64,000 nt of DNA from Bugulina stolonifera. Lineage: Eukaryota; Bryozoa; Gymnolaemata; Cheilostomatida; Bugulidae. The position numbers and the translations under genes are program-made. The stretch lies in NCBI GenBank assembly GCA_935421135.1, contig OW285187.1:6634001-6698000 (forward strand). Reading direction: 5' to 3'. Shown piece after piece: positions 31,695-40,402 of the stretch. The notes below the pieces were generated by a model. That model ran no database searches. It had not been told where the DNA came from and saw nothing but the letters and a program-made list of their open reading frames with translations. Numbering within the stretch: the stretch's first letter is position 1; each line of letters opens with the position of its first letter.

Positions 31695-33845
31695 TTATGT
31701 CTTTAAAACTCTATACAATCCTAAACCAATAGTCAAACCTGACACTATCGACCCTCCAATGAATTTGTATATGTCATTTTTGTATCGTTCAAAAGTTGTT
31801 TCTAAAGTACCAACCTCTGCTGTCATCTTGGTAGTAAGACTAGCTATACTTTTCTCTACTAGAGCATGCTCATCCTTCGAACGACTTCTCTCCATATTCA
31901 TGTCTAGAGTCAGCTGATTCTTAACCTGGCTCACGTCTTCTGTCATCTACAAATCCAGTCATTCGAATATATGGCAGCACTCAAAACAATATTAAATGAA
32001 CTATTGTCTTCTCATAAAATATATCATTCACAGAAAATTAACAAAAAGGTGTTGCGTTACCCACAGACCTGTGATCTATGCTGAGCTAGCAAAAGTTTTA
32101 ACTTCTCATTTTCATTACGCAAATCCGAAAGCTCACTTTTCTCCAGTATCGTCATGTCTTTACGTAATGCTCCAATATGAGCCATCACCTGCTCCCTCAT
32201 GACATCCTACCAAATTCCATGATACTTATTATGTTCATGCAGAAAATTTAATAATAATAATCTTGTAAAATGATACATGGATACTTCGCAGTTGCATCAA
32301 AATATCATATTGTCAAGTTGTCCTCTCTCTTTCAAAGAGAGAAGATAATTTTAAAAATTGCACGAACTTCATATGAGTATATTCTGTAGGAATACATTTG
32401 TATCAACCATATATTGTACATATACCATATTTGCTATATTTGCCATATTGACAATACGTACCAAATGAATGTTTAACCAACACCCAATTTTCAAACATTT
32501 AGCAAAGAAAATAGAAATATTCAAGAAGAAACTCACAAGGCCAGATTTTTCCACGCAATGTTTCCTCTGCTCTTTCAGGGCGTCATTCATCAACTGAGCA
32601 AATGTATATGTAATGCATTCTGCTTGTTCCAACGTAAACCCTAAAATGTAAACTTGCATATTTTACCAATTAAGTGCCCTGTAAAATTACAATAAATTCT
32701 TGCTATATTGTAGTGCATATAACAGCAATGCTACCTGTATAATAAGTCATTTTTGGGCTAAAATGTTGCAACATTACATACATTTCTATATACGGTGTGG
32801 TCTAGGATAAAACAACATTTATGAAAAACTCTAAACTGCAAACATTATTACCACTTATGATTACTAAATTTAAAGTACAGAAATAAGACTAACCTTTTTT
32901 AGTAAACAGCTTCACCAGAGCATAAGTATCAACTAAAATATTGTCCTGAGAAAGTTGAGCGGAGCCATACTCAGTGGAGCTGTAACTAGCGGCCTCCTTA
33001 CTTAAATCTGGATTGTCCTCTACTGTTTGACGAACTAAAAGTTTGAATCAGTACATTATACATGCAAGACAGAGACACAGAAACATCTTGTAAATTCATG
33101 TGAGCAAGGTGGGCATAGAGGAGTGTCTCTTGTGCAGTTGGTTCAGCCCACATATACTACTCATCAGCTCAGCTTCTTTTTCAAGGAAGCTGAAGCTGAG
33201 CTGGTATCATGGTTATTACGCCGAACCTCTGTGACATTACGTACTGCAGAGCCTAGAGTTCAAACCCCAGTTAGGAGTGGGCAATTCCTACAAATGTGGA
33301 ATGAAGTCCATACAAGAGAAGTATACAGCATAGTGTACGCATATAATTATGGAACAAAACAAATCTTTGAAAAAATAGTCGCCTATCACTTGCATACTAT
33401 TTCACCAGAACTAATCTACAGTCCTATTTACCTACTCTTAAGATTCTATGTTGACTAGTTACTAGTTTCAGTAACATCTGAAGCAGTTTATTCATCTTCT
33501 ACCTGCTGAACTATTTCGCCCTCAGTCATATGTAATGGCAGTGATAGAGGGCATCACGACAAATCATTATAACATTAACAAAACAAACCAAAAGTTGAAA
33601 TGTTATCATCAGATATGCTTACTTGACTCTTTTAAAATTTCCTCTTCATTCACCTTGCGTGAATCCTCTTTCAGTACATTGGAAGTGGTGGATAATTTTC
33701 TACCATGTAGCAGTTGTCTGTTTGTCAAACTTGGATTCACACTCCAACTAATCAACCTTACAGCTGCATTGACTAATGTTGTGCTTCCTCTCTTTCCAAA
33801 ACTCACTGACGCTATGGAAATCTTTGAAACCAGCAAAGCGCTCAT
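31695..33845 (-). CDS. MCUR1/CCDC90B-family mitochondrial coiled-coil membrane protein
   Basis: Five exons in transcription order: 33845-33623, 33034-32894, 32640-32537, 32206-32069, 31946-31695; phases agree and give 285 residues. The first exon (about 74 aa) is basic, Ser/Thr-rich and nearly free of acid near its start, as in a mitochondrial presequence. Residues about 110-150 hold the conserved head (VDTYALVKLFTKKGFTLEQA). A coiled coil follows (DMTILEKSELSDLRNENEKL, then DMNMERSRS). One membrane segment lies close to the C-terminus (about 262-283, ending GLGLYRVLKT). This order is diagnostic of the DUF1640 family, which contains CCDC90B and MCUR1, the latter reported to regulate the mitochondrial calcium uniporter. 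I cannot tell which paralogue, and it may be the single ancestral type. It converges on MAGI. A SINE lies in intron 1, and an LTR element is inserted upstream in the same orientation. Confidence 0.9.
33194..33318 (+). repeat. tRNA-derived SINE, copy 6, in MCUR1-like intron 1
   Basis: GAGCTGGTATCATGGTTATT (A-box region), later GAGTTCAAACCCC (B-box), then AGTGGGCAATTCCTACAAAT and GTGGAATGAAGTCC. It has the same layout as copies 1 and 3 but is more diverged. It is preceded by a palindrome around 33166-33200 (CAGCTCAGCTTC and its complement). Confidence 0.65.
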
Positions 33846-34301
33846 TTCTGTTTGAAACTTATGCAGCAGTTGCTGGATTTTAAAAAACTAGAATCCGAAC
33901 TACAACCAAATATAAAAAGGTTTGATATCCAACTGATATCTGTCATACCAATACGACAATACCCACGCCTATCACTAATAAGACCAACCAACATGTACAC
34001 TTACTGCTGTAATACTAAAGTCATCAAGTTAGATTTAGTAACTGTTTTTATCAGTTCAGGCATAACCGCATAACTGCAGACGGAATTCACTGGATATTAT
34101 AATTGACCACAAGTCCACAAGGAAGTCATGCATGTATGACAAACATTATTGTCCTCAAAAATAACTGAACAGAAATATTCAATATAGTAGCACTATAAGG
34201 TGTTACATTATGATTATTTGGTGCTTGCACAAGTGAACATTACTGTATGGTTATAGAGTTGCCATTTAGTTTTTAGTTGCGAGTGAACCAACCAACCCTG
34301 A
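33846..34301. other. Upstream region of the MCUR1-like gene up to the LTR insertion
   Basis: 456 bp between the start codon and the 3' LTR of the retrotransposon. It should contain the 5' UTR and core promoter. I see no clear TATA box or other recognisable motif. The last five bases before the LTR (CCTGA, 34297-34301) are the left target-site duplicate. Confidence 0.4.
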
Positions 34302-34610
34302 TGTAGATTAACTTTAAAAGAGTTTATAGGTTTACTAGTTGCTGTATTACACTACTAACATGTTGACAGAACAACACTCAAGACTCAACTGACTCATCAA
34401 TATAACCACATAAAAGCATTACAGCAATTATGATGAAACAATGATGCAATGCAAACAGCCAGGCAAATCAATGACATTGGCAAAGAACACATTAATATGA
34501 AACGTTGTGATACTATAAACAAATGATGTGTTAATTAGAGCAAAAACATAACCAGAAGTTAAAACTGAACTATGATAAGATATATGTATAATATATAATG
34601 CAACTTTACA
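34302..34610 (-). repeat. 3' LTR
   Basis: 309 bp, TG...CA ends, essentially identical to 38314-38622. It is the copy nearest the MCUR1-like gene and is oriented so that transcription started in it would run toward that gene. Confidence 0.95.
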
Positions 34611-34624
34611 CCTCCCCCTGATCT
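34611..34624 (-). other. Polypurine tract
   Basis: The minus-strand sequence AGATCAGGGGGAGG directly precedes the 3' LTR and starts 10 bp after the pol stop codon. Position and composition fit the plus-strand DNA primer site. Confidence 0.8.
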
Positions 34625-34634
34625 CTATGATCAA

Positions 34635-37600
34635 TCAATAGTCTAAGCAAAAGTCAGCCAACCAGGCAGGGGGTTTACGATTTCTGGCAGGACGAACTGA
34701 TTCTTCCGACTCAGCTTCGCTACCTGCATCACTGACAATGTCATTAGCATCTACAGCAATGTTATCGTGATCGTGTTCGATACCTACATGTATGTTGTCA
34801 ACAGGCTCTGGAGTATTGTGAATTTCTAGCTCGCATTGCTGCAATTCTAACTGATTAGCGCTAGGTCTCCAGCAAAATCTAATATCACCTATGTGTCTAG
34901 TCATTCCGTCTACTTTAGCAGCAGTGTTAGAAACCAATGCAGTTATTATACCAGTTTTCCATACTGACGTACACTTGTTGACTCCTGGTTTTACATAGAC
35001 TTGGTCGCCCACCTTATAGGGGTTTAAGCTAACATCCCTGCTACTATTAGCTACAGCTTCTGGCAACTTTTGCAACTTATATTGAAATAGTCTTTCAGCA
35101 GGTACAACGCCCTCAGCGTTTGGAGAATTATTATACCAAAACACCATTTCATTAACTGTGCCACCAGACCGCTCTAGCATTCGCTTAATGGTGCGATGGT
35201 TTCGCTCAATTATGCCGTTCCCAGAAGCTCTGTAAGCACAACTGAATATTTGGTTAACATTCCATTTCTGAAGCATAGGCTTAAGTGCTTTGAAACAAGG
35301 TCCGTTATCTGATAAGAGCTCTACTGGAGGGCCACGTTCACAGAATATGTGCTCTAACTGCTCTTTGACTACAACAGATGTTTCATTTCTTAACTTCCTC
35401 CAAATCACATATCTGCTTGGCCCACAATCTATTACAGTTAGGTATGGTGTGCCCTTGTAATGAGTTATATCAGTAGCCAGTCTTTGCCAGTCATCGTCAA
35501 CATCTACATGACCAGCTTCCCATCGAACTGGTGCGGGATCTATTCTACGACAGATGTGACATTGCCTAACTACCTCCTCTACATCATTTCTCTTCACTCT
35601 TGAGCCCCATTTGGCTACAGCTAAGTGCAAGGTGCGATCAACACCCAGATGGTTCATGTCATGAAGGTTACGCAACTTGTCTATGATGTCATCTGCTATG
35701 ACATTTACACCACAAGTTCGCTTATCAAGCCATTTGCGCGGAACTCTAGTAAGTTCATCAGCTTTGTTTTCCTCTGATTTTACTAGCACGATTTGCATGG
35801 TCAATTCATACTCATCAATCAAGTCACTTAACAATCTAAGACGCCGCTTTACTATCATTTCACTTAAACCGCTAACTTTAGGCCTTTTACTGTCATTGAG
35901 CACTGACTTTACCCACCCATGTACTGTTGCAGAGTCCGTAAGGATGGTGACATCTTTCAAGTCCCATTTTAAGGCTATGTTTACAGCTTTTAATACTGCC
36001 TCAAGCTCTGCAACGTTAATGTGTGCTCCATCATCGATACTTCTCAACCAAGTAGCGTCCTCTACAATCTCATTGCCAACTTCAACACATACACCTACCG
36101 CCAAACTGCTGGCGTCACACCACACTTTACCTATTTGTGATGCTTCTACACTCCATTGACCGCCAACTGGGTCGTGCTGCTTTAACTTTTCTGACACCTC
36201 ATCCAACATTTTCTTGACATTACTTGGTATATCACTGTCCCATTCGCTGGAATGAACCTCTCGTTTCATAAAGCTGCACGCCACCCTTAACCATCTAGCC
36301 ACAGGGTAATGACCAATGTATTTGCCACATATTGAGTACAATTCTCTTTTACTAACTTGTGATGGTACTTCAGGTATATCACTGTCTCTTCGCCACTCGA
36401 GGGTTCCACATTCAGAAGAATTGACTCGCAACCCTAATACTCGTGCACAAGAAAGTTTTTCAGGTTCCTTTGAGATTAAACCATACTTTTTTAAGTGTTC
36501 CTTTACTGTTGACACTGCAACAATCTCCTCATTTACTAATATATCATCTATGTAATGATCAGTACCATTGCATACATTTTCATCAAGCGACAAAACTTTG
36601 GCGAGTATTTGAGACATGACTTTTGGTGCTATGTTCAGACCAAATCCCAATCTGGTTAACACATATAGTTTGCCCTTGATTCTTACAGCCTGAAATCGTT
36701 GCAAGGACTTATCTACATGCAATTGCAAGTATGCTTTTTGCAGGTCTAGCATACAGGCCTTATTACCAATTTTCCGCCATTCTCTCAACTTTTCTTGACA
36801 AACTGCTACATTACTGCCTGGATTACTATGAACATACTTGTTCAACTCCCTACTGTAATCCATTACAGGTCTCACTTTCCTAGCTTTATTAGGCTGGAAA
36901 ACTGCCATTAGTGGAATTACACCACTTACCTTTCCATGTTCACATTCATCATATGGCTCCAACCATCCATTGCTTATCCATTGCTCTATCTCACTGTCAT
37001 ACTTTTGCCTACAGTTCTCTTTTACTGCATATTCAGAGCATTGATTTTTAAGCACTGGTTCTTCTTCCTTCCATTTCCATTTAACTGTCCATTTAGTGCC
37101 GTTGAAATTGGCACTAAAATCTGAATCTTCAATATGCAACACTTTCACTTCCGTTTCGTTCTCACATGCTGCAACCACATGATGTTCAAATTTCCCAAAC
37201 TGCACACCTTTGCTTGTGCTTATTGCAACACCACCAAGCCTGTTAATTCCATCCATGCCAAGGATTAAACTACATCCACACACAAGTTCAGGTGCTACCA
37301 AACAACGTAACTGTATACTGTCACAATGATCAACATCTACTGTTATAACGACCTCACCATAGCATTGAGTAGTGTTTCCGTTTAGCATTTTAACTATTCT
37401 CCCTGGACCTATAACTCTCAACTTCAACTTGTCAACAATTCCTTTCGCAATAACAGTCTGTTCACATCCACTATCGATCAAAGTTTTTGTTGTAATTCCA
37501 CAAACCTTAGTTGTTATAAATGGAAGCGTCGACCTTATTGAGTATTGTTGGGGCGAGCAACCGACGCATACGCTCCCCCGCTCCCGTTTCCCGACCTCTT

Positions 37601-37646
37601 TGGACACTGTTTTGACACGTGACCAAAGTCCTGGCAGCTGTAGCAT
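34635..37646 (-). CDS. pol: Retrotransposon pol: protease, reverse transcriptase, RNase H, integrase
   Basis: An uninterrupted frame of 1003 codons from its first Met; it is probably expressed as a gag-pol fusion by -1 frameshifting, so that Met need not be a real start. In this numbering the protease active site is LIDSG (58-60; Ser replaces the usual Thr). Reverse transcriptase has RPVMDYSRELN (259-269), catalytic Asp301 in DLQKAY and YIDD (365-368). RNase H acids are Asp511, Glu548, Asp571 and Asp630. Integrase has an HHCC zinc site (His662, His666, Cys696, Cys699) and the D, D, E residues Asp726, Asp780 and Glu814. All expected catalytic residues are present. The stop is followed within 10 bp by the polypurine tract. 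The exact superfamily is not settled by eye. Confidence 0.93.
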   Translation of the reverse strand: MLQLPGLWSRVKTVSKEVGKRERGSVCVGCSPQQYSIRSTLPFITTKVCGITTKTLIDSGCEQTVIAKGIVDKLKLRVIGPGRIVKMLNGNTTQCYGEVVITVDVDHCDSIQLRCLVAPELVCGCSLILGMDGINRLGGVAISTSKGVQFGKFEHHVVAACENETEVKVLHIEDSDFSANFNGTKWTVKWKWKEEEPVLKNQCSEYAVKENCRQKYDSEIEQWISNGWLEPYDECEHGKVSGVIPLMAVFQPNKARKVRPVMDYSRELNKYVHSNPGSNVAVCQEKLREWRKIGNKACMLDLQKAYLQLHVDKSLQRFQAVRIKGKLYVLTRLGFGLNIAPKVMSQILAKVLSLDENVCNGTDHYIDDILVNEEIVAVSTVKEHLKKYGLISKEPEKLSCARVLGLRVNSSECGTLEWRRDSDIPEVPSQVSKRELYSICGKYIGHYPVARWLRVACSFMKREVHSSEWDSDIPSNVKKMLDEVSEKLKQHDPVGGQWSVEASQIGKVWCDASSLAVGVCVEVGNEIVEDATWLRSIDDGAHINVAELEAVLKAVNIALKWDLKDVTILTDSATVHGWVKSVLNDSKRPKVSGLSEMIVKRRLRLLSDLIDEYELTMQIVLVKSEENKADELTRVPRKWLDKRTCGVNVIADDIIDKLRNLHDMNHLGVDRTLHLAVAKWGSRVKRNDVEEVVRQCHICRRIDPAPVRWEAGHVDVDDDWQRLATDITHYKGTPYLTVIDCGPSRYVIWRKLRNETSVVVKEQLEHIFCERGPPVELLSDNGPCFKALKPMLQKWNVNQIFSCAYRASGNGIIERNHRTIKRMLERSGGTVNEMVFWYNNSPNAEGVVPAERLFQYKLQKLPEAVANSSRDVSLNPYKVGDQVYVKPGVNKCTSVWKTGIITALVSNTAAKVDGMTRHIGDIRFCWRPSANQLELQQCELEIHNTPEPVDNIHVGIEHDHDNIAVDANDIVSDAGSEAESEESVRPARNRKPPAWLADFCLDY

Positions 37647-38281
37647 TGAATTTGTTTATTTGCGTCCCTTTGTTTTCTTCCTGTAGGACATTCTCTTGCA
37701 ATGTGACCCTGACCTGAACATGTGTAGCATTTGATACTTGTATTTGCTAGTTTTTGTGTGACAGTACTGCATACATATGCTGCATCGGATTTCGACGCTA
37801 ACACAGTCCTGGCGCGGGTTACAATTTCATTCAATCCCATCTCTTCTACAGCAGCTGTTGCCTTCAGTTGATCTGAGACACCTGTCGGCAAACCAGACAC
37901 AAAAGCACATTTAAGCAGCGGATCAGATTGCTTTTGACCGATTGAATCTATCAACCGTCTCAGATCTGCAAGAAACACATCTACTGTTTCACCCTCTTGT
38001 AACACTCGTACACGCAACTTGTCATAAGCGCTATAACAGTTTATGCTGAATGCTGTCATTAGCTCCTTCTTTAACTTGTCATAATCATTCTTTGTAGTAT
38101 CTGGTAGCTGCTGATATAATGAGAAGGCTGGTCCGTTTAAAAACAATGGCACAAACGACTTTAAGTCATCTACTTTCTGCAGCTTTGCAACCAGTTCTAA
38201 CTTATCAATCCATGTACTGAATTCTCCACTACTGTTACTGTCCTCATAGCTCTTAATCAGATCTGATAGCTTTACTGCCAT
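37535..38281 (-). CDS. gag: Retrotransposon gag with two CCHC zinc knuckles
   Basis: 248 codons, beginning 32 nt inside the 5' LTR boundary. The N-terminal two thirds resemble a retrotransposon capsid region (FLNGPAFSLYQQLP, then EGETVDVFLADLRRLI). Two zinc knuckles lie near the C-terminus (CYTCSGQGHIAREC and CYSCQDFGHVSKQC, pattern C-x2-C-x4-H-x4-C) followed by a short Gly/Ser tail. It overlaps pol by 112 nt in the -1 frame. It packages element RNA in cytoplasmic particles (family knowledge). Confidence 0.92.
   Translation of the reverse strand: MAVKLSDLIKSYEDSNSSGEFSTWIDKLELVAKLQKVDDLKSFVPLFLNGPAFSLYQQLPDTTKNDYDKLKKELMTAFSINCYSAYDKLRVRVLQEGETVDVFLADLRRLIDSIGQKQSDPLLKCAFVSGLPTGVSDQLKATAAVEEMGLNEIVTRARTVLASKSDAAYVCSTVTQKLANTSIKCYTCSGQGHIARECPTGRKQRDANKQIQCYSCQDFGHVSKQCPKRSGNGSGGAYASVARPNNTQ
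37550..37592 (-). promoter_or_regulatory. Putative -1 ribosomal frameshift signal between gag and pol
   Basis: In the gag frame the minus strand reads G GGA AAC at 37592-37586, a textbook X XXY YYZ slippery heptamer. After a 6-nt spacer a GC-rich hairpin can form: 37579-37576 pairs with 37553-37550, and 37575-37572 with 37558-37555, with one bulged base and a 13-nt loop. The pol frame is -1 relative to gag, as required. Confidence 0.75.
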
Positions 38282-38301
38282 TTTCTTGTTGTACTAATAT
38301 T

Positions 38302-38313
38302 GCCGAAATAGCT
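38302..38313 (-). other. Putative primer-binding site complementary to the 5' end of tRNA-Phe
   Basis: Directly adjacent to the 5' LTR. The plus strand here reads GCCGAAATAGCT, identical to nucleotides 1-12 of animal tRNA-Phe (from memory), so the element RNA would pair with the tRNA's 5' end. The usual TGG that pairs with the tRNA CCA tail is absent. This suggests priming by a tRNA fragment, but it is unproven. Confidence 0.55.
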
Positions 38314-38622
38314 TGTAGATTAACTTTAAAAGAGTTTATAGGTTTACTAGTTGCTGTATTACACTACTAACATGTTGACAGAACAACACTCAAGACTCAA
38401 CTGACTCATCAATATAACCACATAAAAGCATTACAGCAATTATGATGAAACAATGATGCAATGCAAACAGCCAGGCAAACCAATGACATTGGCAAAGAAC
38501 ACATTAATATGAAACGTTGTGATACTATAAACAAATGATGTGTTAATTAGAGCAAAAACATAACCAGAAGTTAAAACTGAACTATGATAAGATATATGTA
38601 TAATATATAATGCAACTTTACA
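38314..38622 (-). repeat. 5' LTR
   Basis: 309 bp, TG...CA ends, one base different from 34302-34610; followed on the plus strand by the right CCTGA target duplicate (38623-38627). It carries the element promoter by position. Confidence 0.95.
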
Positions 38623-39311
38623 CCTGATAGTAACGTAGTATTATAAGTACAAGCAATCAAATTAAATTATAGGTATTTAGCAGAACTAAGATATTTTTAT
38701 TTTATTACAATCAACTTGAGTTGTCGGTAGCGGCGCATCACATACACACTGCATACCTATAGCAATATTATGACGTAAGAATAGAATCAGATAAAAAAAT
38801 ATCAATATGAATCGAATATCAATTCAATATGAATATCAATATCAATATGAATATTAATATGTCATTCAGATTCTGGGAGATCAGAATGATAGGCCTATTA
38901 TTTTTGGGGATGCAAACTGAAAGTGAACTGGACAGTTACACCACCATCGTCAAGAAAACTAAAGTAAATCAAGGGCTCAACTATAATAATATAAACCGTC
39001 ATTGATCGCTATTTAATCAGGAAGAGTGGGATGACTGATTAATAATTCAAACAAAAGGTATCATTTTACCAAAATAGCGCTGTTACATGTTACCACAGGT
39101 TAAAAACGTTCTGTATATCTTCCAATAATTTTATGGCAGGTAATGGTCTTTACGAGATTTAAAGGTTTTCTAAAATAGATAACATAACACCGGGGAAACA
39201 AATCCTAACCGTATGAACTTTCGGCTGCAGTAGTTGCAAAGTGGTACAATATTGTATGTATCACTTTGAGTGGTTGGGCTGGTGTGGACTGTGGAGTCAT
39301 AGATCTATCTC
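38623..39311. other. Intergenic stretch without recognised gene
   Basis: AT-rich DNA between the LTR element and the AAGTC element. At about 38800-38862 there is a simple repeat of AATATGAATATC and AATATCAATATG. Nothing else was recognised. Confidence 0.5.
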
Positions 39312-40402
39312 CAGAGTTGGGTCCAAGTCGACTTGCAAGTCAACAAGTCAAGTCATTTCTAAAATTTTGGAGGCAAGTCAAGTCGAAGTCAAGTCAGTGC
39401 TGCCTCAAGTCAAGTCAAGTCAAGTCAAGTCAAGTAACTTCTAAAATTTTGAAGGCAAGTCAAGTCGAAGTCAAGTCAGTGATGCCTCAAGTCAAGTCAA
39501 GTCAAGTCAGCTGTCATGCAAGTCACAAGTCAAGTCAAGTCAAAGTCAAGTCAAGTCGAAATGCAAGTCAAGTGGAAGACAACTTCAAAAAATTTTACAT
39601 TTCTCAAACCATCATTTTTTTCCTTTAGTAGGCATTCCAATCCATGAAAAACCTATGCCAATGTGTAGCAGGGCATGTACATGTATGTTATGCAATCATG
39701 GTAAAGAACTAGTCTATATAAGTAGTATTATTGGCACTACAGTCGAGACTGGTCATATAGTATTATATACTGTATATTGTAATGGTGATGCAGTGTTACA
39801 TACATGTAAACAGCACATGGTACAGCACAGAGTGTCCACTGGCCAGTCCTGCAATTTAACTCTAGTAATGCTTGCACTGTACATTATATTCACTACTTAC
39901 ACCACACCTAGGCTACACTTACACTACTTGCACTGTGTGTACTTGTGACTATGCATTGCCGTTGTGTAGTCTCACGTACACACAACCTAGATATTGCCTG
40001 AATTGTGTATCCTCATAGCTAACCTTGATATACTCTGAGTGCTGCTAGTAGCACTGACCCAGTACAAATGATAAATAGGTAGACAATTGAGACCTTTTTT
40101 CCATGTTGGCTAAACACTATACAAAATTTTTATTTGCCAGATTGACTTGGCAGAACCCAAGTCAAAATCACAAGTCATTCATGTGTCCAAGTCAAGTCAA
40201 GTCAAGTCACATTGATGTGCAAGTCAAAGTCAAGTCGAAATCACAAGTCATTCATGTGTCCAAGTCAAGTCAAGTCAAGTCACATTGATGCGCAAGTCAA
40301 AGTCAAGTCAAGTCAGCAAGTTGGCAAGTCCAAGTCAAGTCGACTTGTGACTTGACTTGACTTGGCAAGTCAAGTCAAATCTATGACTTGGACCCAGCTC
40401 TG
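39312..40402. mobile_element. AAGTC-rich foldback element
   Basis: The ends are inverted copies of CAGAG(T/C)TGGGTCCAAGTC (39312-39329 and 40385-40402). Two blocks of tandem AAGTC units (39330-39575 and about 40155-40375) flank some 500 bp of ordinary sequence. The right block contains a duplicated subunit of about 73 bp (CAAGTCATTCATGTGTCC...) and ends with inverted GACTTGACTTG. The Lys/Ser/Gln/Val-rich open frames here are products of the repeat. It looks like a non-autonomous DNA element with satellite-like arms. Confidence 0.7.

Follow-up and report, generated by a model that had tools for sequence, protein, structure and literature searches.

What primes minus-strand DNA synthesis in an LTR retrotransposon whose 5' LTR is not followed by TGG? 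This question is raised by an element lying on the minus strand of the window, by which we mean the whole 64,000-nt stretch of DNA that was analyzed from the bryozoan Bugulina stolonifera (assembly GCA_935421135.1). Its paired TG...CA LTRs, its short target duplication, its polypurine tract and the position of its predicted primer-binding site (PBS) identify it as an LTR retrotransposon (Table 1). In element orientation, the order of the features is 5' LTR, 12-nt PBS, 20 nt, gag, pol, inverted repeat, polypurine tract and 3' LTR. Both gag and pol are open, and pol ends only 25 nt from the LTR, which therefore leaves no space for an envelope gene. On the plus strand, the letters at 38302-38313 read GCCGAAATAGCT and the adjoining LTR opens with TGTAGATTAA at 38314, its partner starting at 34302. 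Because the element is on the minus strand, the junction of 5' LTR and PBS is given in reverse orientation: TCTACA / AGCTATTTCGGC / AATATTAG. The 5-bp target duplication is exact (TCAGG in element orientation). Two CAAGTC-rich tandem arrays with units of 82 and 73 nt are also present in the window, at 39344-39507 and 40158-40303.

Table 1. Coordinates of the element and its parts, as positions in the window.
Feature	Position	Strand	Remark
Whole element	34302-38622	minus	LTR retrotransposon
Primer-binding site (PBS, predicted), AGCTATTTCGGC in element orientation	38302..38313	-	complement of tRNA-Phe nt 1-12
5' LTR, 309 nt, TG...CA	38314..38622	-	
3' LTR, TG...CA	34302..34610	-	
Target site duplication CCTGA, left copy	34297..34301	.	
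Target site duplication CCTGA, right copy	38623..38627	.	
gag ORF, 248 aa, two CCHC knuckles; ATG 20 nt past PBS	37535..38281	-	
pol ORF, 1003 aa: aspartic protease, RT, DUF7047, RNase H, integrase; -1 frame relative to gag	34635..37646	-	
GGGAAAC in X XXY YYZ phase, within gag/pol overlap; possible -1 frameshift site	37586..37592	-	
Polypurine tract AGGGGGAGG, adjoining 3' LTR	34611..34619	-	
Inverted repeat TGATC-ATAGA-GATCA, immediately ahead of polypurine tract	34619..34633	-	by eye

The Pfam matches of pol follow the order protease, RT, RNase H, integrase, which is that of Ty3/Gypsy-like elements (Metaviridae) and not that of Ty1/copia elements, where the integrase precedes the RT. In PDB, the integrase and RT match retroviral and Ty3 chains, although such sequence matches do not place the clade. 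No chromodomain was matched in Pfam, and Pao-type families were absent from the Pfam matches at E up to 10, a threshold that distant members could escape. Protein databases contain numerous relatives of pol (477 at E ≤ 1e-10), some of which come from another bryozoan, Watersipora subatra. Many of the 120 listed relatives (P0001-P0120) derive from contigs of about 3.5-4.8 kb, and most present PF23088 (DUF7047) between RT and RNase H, a domain that may serve as a marker of the clade.

The 12 bases adjoining the 5' LTR are exactly complementary to nt 1-12 of the tRNA-Phe of the host; an initial sequence-only reading of this locus had noticed that they match the 5' end of animal tRNA-Phe. That reading depended on the tRNA-Phe genes of the host beginning in the expected way, and they do: GCCGAAATAGCT is the start of six tRNA-Phe loci in the genome (three on C3 and three on C9), five of which are called tRNA-Phe(GAA) by ARAGORN. 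These six loci were located via the 12-mer itself; a genome search with the tRNA-Phe core returned the same six, whose 5' ends were read, and four more-diverged places. The match is bounded on both sides. It ends at nt 12, since pairing with nt 13 would take a G and the last base of the LTR is an A, and it ends at nt 1, the mature 5' end of the tRNA. The bases past the PBS diverge from the leaders of the tRNA-Phe genes, and an unprocessed pre-tRNA was rejected as the primer on this ground. Assuming 45 tRNAs, the probability of matching a tRNA 5' end by chance is 45/4^12 = 2.7e-6 for one element, and 3.3e-4 when any 12-mer of any tRNA on either strand is allowed. Some tRNA-like matches were also seen on small contigs (G000:C26:14224-14295 and 32043-32113; G000:C12:10511-10581); one of them has a tRNA-Phe-like core and they are perhaps of symbiont or organelle origin.

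We found 91 exact matches to the 12-mer across the genome and a single match to the reversed control pattern. All 91 contexts were classified: 78 are LTR junctions, six are the tRNA-Phe loci and seven are neither (L012, L022, L023, L034, L063, L086 and L095). Based on their flanks, the 78 junctions form seven groups: F1 (10 junctions, the window element among them), F2 (36), F3 (19), F6 (5), F7 (5), F5 (2) and F4 (1), with F4 and F5 known only from loci of 3 kb or less. These groups are not independent, since the similarity between F2 and F7 is 93-95% inside and 86% in the LTR, and that between F2 and F6 is 70% inside. When the LTRs of F1, F2, F3, F6 and F7 were compared by blastn, F2/F7 was the only one of the ten pairs to match. 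Identity to the window pol is 51% for F3, 41% for F2, 38% for F6 and 37-42% for F7; identity to the window gag is 46% for F3 and 23-24% for the other families compared. The leaders differ between families, yet AATAT opens both F1 and F3. The site is thus common to families with widely diverged LTRs and pol, where related copies with other sequences at this position would have counted against the sequence-only reading. This refines the initial observation: the tRNA-Phe site is a property of a clade rather than of one copy.

The structure of the copies is consistent with this assignment. Paired LTRs with ends falling exactly at the 12-mer were recovered in 16 of 17 element loci (7.5 kb each), and 12 of the 18 elements inspected, window copy included, have exact 5-bp duplications; the scripted search found no exact duplication for L043, L049, L050, L051, L053 and L057. 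In the families inspected, the polypurine tract is immediately preceded by a perfect inverted repeat, which was observed at the same place in L042, L044, L054 and L055. Its stems differ (TGATC/GATCA in F1 and F3, AGCTTC/GAAGCT in F2, F6 and F7), with loops of TTGA, GTGA or ATAGA. One of the seven unclassified places, L023, was considered as an eighth family and rejected, its flanks being common to another repeat whose usual form is GCCTAAATAGCTTG. This repeat (L101, L102 and L103) is one base off the junction word and occupies at least 11 places among the 21 listed of 41 one-mismatch places; three were read, and no LTR was recognized within the 142 nt read.

A search for an exact pattern recovers exact sites alone, and we therefore built an independent test on the RT. 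We retained 89 RT rows of at least 48 bits, merged into 82 clade members, while weaker rows (44 bits or less, 25-34% identity) represent other elements; 150 of 348 candidates were scored, so that 82 is a lower bound. The exact 12-mer was found upstream, on the expected strand and within 3.5 kb, for 72 of these 82 members. Among the ten others, five were inspected: two have the site with one mismatch each, both transitions, and three have no site at the expected place. As a control, we used one Gypsy-type family of the same genome with a distant RT (30% identity, 33.8 bits). It presents an ordinary TGG site, with the junction TACAACA / GATT / TGGCGACGAGGATT, where TGGCGACGAGGATT lies 4 nt past the LTR (boundaries drawn by eye), and a target duplication GTTGG.

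The sequences thereby establish a putative primer-binding site defined by its complementarity, its position and its conservation across a diverged clade, in the absence of the usual alternatives. We consider it likely that this Ty3/Gypsy-like clade primes its minus-strand DNA with the ~12 nt at the 5' end of the host tRNA-Phe. Such a primer is supported because diverged families share the site, because it matches the host tRNA, because the match is bounded by the tRNA 5' end and the LTR end, and because no self-primer was found in five families. The element RNA would pair with the 5' strand of tRNA-Phe, and the tRNA would be cut after about nt 12. The cut could precede annealing, yielding a 5' tRNA fragment, or follow it, in which case the RNase H of the element would make it, much as Tf1 cleaves its own RNA (between bases 11 and 12). 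Extension into U5 would then start from the new 3'-OH. The match would stop at the end of the LTR because the first base copied becomes the LTR end. On the other hand, a tRNA fragment of 12 nt is shorter than those commonly reported, which counts against the proposal.

The sequence-only reading had suggested a short 5' fragment of tRNA-Phe ending at nt 12. The fragment itself stands as the probable primer, while its exact end does not: the integrase may trim bases past the LTR-end CA, so that, judged from sequence alone, the primer could end at nt 10, 11 or 12. An end at nt 10 or 11 implies that the integrase removes the AG (or A) past CA as part of U5, as in retroviruses. Two or three bases (GA, AA or GG) do lie between the G-run and the TG of the LTR start, making trimming at both ends conceivable, but AG follows the LTR-end CA in 78 of 78 junctions and is the complement of tRNA nt 11-12, and the bases that flank the LTRs at these two ends do not form inverted repeats with one another. 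We view this shorter primer as unlikely.

It is also conceivable, if quite improbable, that the 12 nt anchor an intact tRNA-Phe or other RNA while the priming 3'-OH comes from elsewhere, such as a small RNA with the same 12 bases. Bipartite primer contacts in Ty1 and Ty3, described in the consulted part of PMC5371799, lend this idea some plausibility. However, no further 8-nt complementarity to tRNA-Phe was found in the LTR plus 400 nt of F1, F2, F3, F6 and F7; complementarity in these five families is confined to nt 1-12 and a complement to a copia-like anticodon region is missing. In addition, the seven unclassified places are the only ones in the assembly where the 12-mer occurs outside LTR junctions and tRNA-Phe loci. 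A third explanation is that the 12-mer resembles tRNA-Phe by chance and is a conserved end signal of the element, such as an integrase or packaging site. The LTRs end in ACA throughout the junctions, and this trinucleotide is as constant as the 12-mer, indicating that constraint extends beyond the 12 nt. Yet an end signal would leave the junction with no alternative PBS and would have to match the host tRNA 5' end exactly over 12 nt at the PBS position, a coincidence expected at the per-site frequency given above, and we find it very improbable. Finally, priming of the Tf1 type from the 5' end of the element's own RNA can practically be dismissed, since we found nothing to support it and the best matches to the primer-sense sequence in the LTRs of the same five families have 4-6 mismatches, as do those in shuffled LTRs.

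We then consider the base that follows the PBS (position 38301 in the window), which was also inspected in L004, L009, L025 and L026. Among the ten copies of F1 it is A in six, T in two and G in two, and no other column between -283 and +311 has three states when the copies are compared without gaps. A deviating base was seen in 4/10 copies of F1, 1/2 of F5 and 1/5 of F7, and in 0/36, 0/19 and 0/5 copies of F2, F3 and F6, respectively; variation at this position was therefore rejected as a general feature of the clade. It might reflect an untemplated base added in some families where copying runs off the 5' end of the tRNA, which we regard as a lead and not a result.

We extended the search beyond this genome. 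In viral contigs, an alignment of 21 pol proteins yielded 37 pattern stretches, none of which was confirmed, and the junction used as a DNA pattern yielded two matches with no LTR in ~200 nt of context. In bacterial and archaeal contigs, the pol alignment gave eight stretches and none was confirmed. B. stolonifera is thus the only species in which DNA of the clade was seen, and a peptide test was therefore used instead. Because gag starts near the PBS, open frames extend through the PBS. Using the F3 gag lengthened to its open upstream end as a query, we retrieved 112 relatives from protein databases, and the site is visible in 13 of them as TSYFG (5), QAISA (7) or KLFR (1). These peptides are one DNA word read in three frames, and the preceding residue is as the LTR-end CA predicts. 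TSYFG is present in the query, so that matches in this frame may be favored, which does not apply to the other two frames.

A second gag search, with P0209, returned five proteins, the query among them, and added four to a pooled set of 116. An anchor was found for 106 proteins and not for ten (P0232 is one without an anchor); 85 have fewer than eight residues upstream and 21 have at least eight and were usable. Scored against the codons of ACA plus the 12-mer, which measures compatible codons and not DNA as read, 11 of these 21 fit without mismatch, 15 with at most one and 17 with at most two. Across 300 shuffled targets, the maximum was zero fits without mismatch and one with at most one mismatch. 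The remaining four did not fit; for one of them (P0161) the sole reason is mis-anchoring, even though QAISA is present. Variant site peptides were also found in the databases: QAIPA, QTISA, KLSR (two), SYRG and SYHG. These may be mutations or may correspond to other versions of tRNA-Phe. For QAIPA, SYRG, SYHG and KLSR, the changes could lie within tRNA nt 4-7, and both SYRG and KLSR are compatible with GCCTCGATAGCT, which we take to be a nematode-type start of tRNA-Phe.

Most LTR retrotransposons are primed by the 3' end of a tRNA. In copia, the anticodon region of initiator tRNA-Met primes DNA synthesis. Our comparison with other published systems draws on the consulted parts of the papers cited. 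A cut tRNA serves as primer in copia and Ty5 (PMC5371799), as proposed here, and the title of a paper cited there names the anticodon region of initiator tRNA-Met for Ty5. Unlike these Ty1/copia elements, the present clade would use the 5' terminus of the tRNA, and that of tRNA-Phe, and has the pol order PR-RT-RH-IN. In Tf1, the first 11 bases of the element's own RNA pair with the PBS and an RNase H cut between bases 11 and 12 generates the primer (PMC7175516). The likeness to Tf1/sushi is that ~12 nt of an RNA 5' end would pair with the PBS; the differences are that this RNA would be the host tRNA-Phe and not the element transcript, that no self-complementary LTR sequence exists in the five families and that no chromodomain was matched in Pfam. 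Mouse IAP and similar elements also employ tRNA-Phe, through its 3' end and a conventional 18-nt PBS (PMC7472051), whereas the opposite end of the tRNA would pair here. The nearest mechanism is that of Tf1 and the nearest primer source is the half-tRNA of copia. A precedent may exist in Tcn2-5 of Cryptococcus, retrotransposons whose priming was proposed to be potentially novel (cited in PMC7175516). The survey of plant LTR elements in PMC6317226 distinguishes complete tRNAs, half-molecules cut in the anticodon stem and self-primers, and Helenus elements use tRNA 3' ends, with anticodon loops taking their place in most fungal families (PMC10886601). Among the titles and abstract openings listed by searches of an open-access library, we found no description of priming by a tRNA 5' end. 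The 5'-terminal tRNA-Phe primer proposed here would differ from the three types of that survey.

The PBS could stay conserved by being recopied from the primer in each cycle; however, the PBS is strictly inherited in Ty1 and Ty3 (PMC7472051), and selection for pairing is therefore the safer wording. A broader scenario is possible rather than probable, and we offer it tentatively: an old and successful Gypsy-like clade with a fourth kind of primer, ~12 nt of tRNA-Phe cut by its own RNase H after annealing, whose PBS would track changes of the host tRNA-Phe between species and which in some families would incorporate an untemplated base at run-off.

The relatives of pol are common in protein databases, and the idea is therefore testable in existing genomes. 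If true, a 5'-terminal tRNA fragment would constitute a fourth type of primer. This would link 5' tRNA fragments with the replication of mobile DNA, and one would then have to ask what cleaves the tRNA around nt 12. It would also mean that PBS searches based on tRNA 3' ends overlook such elements.
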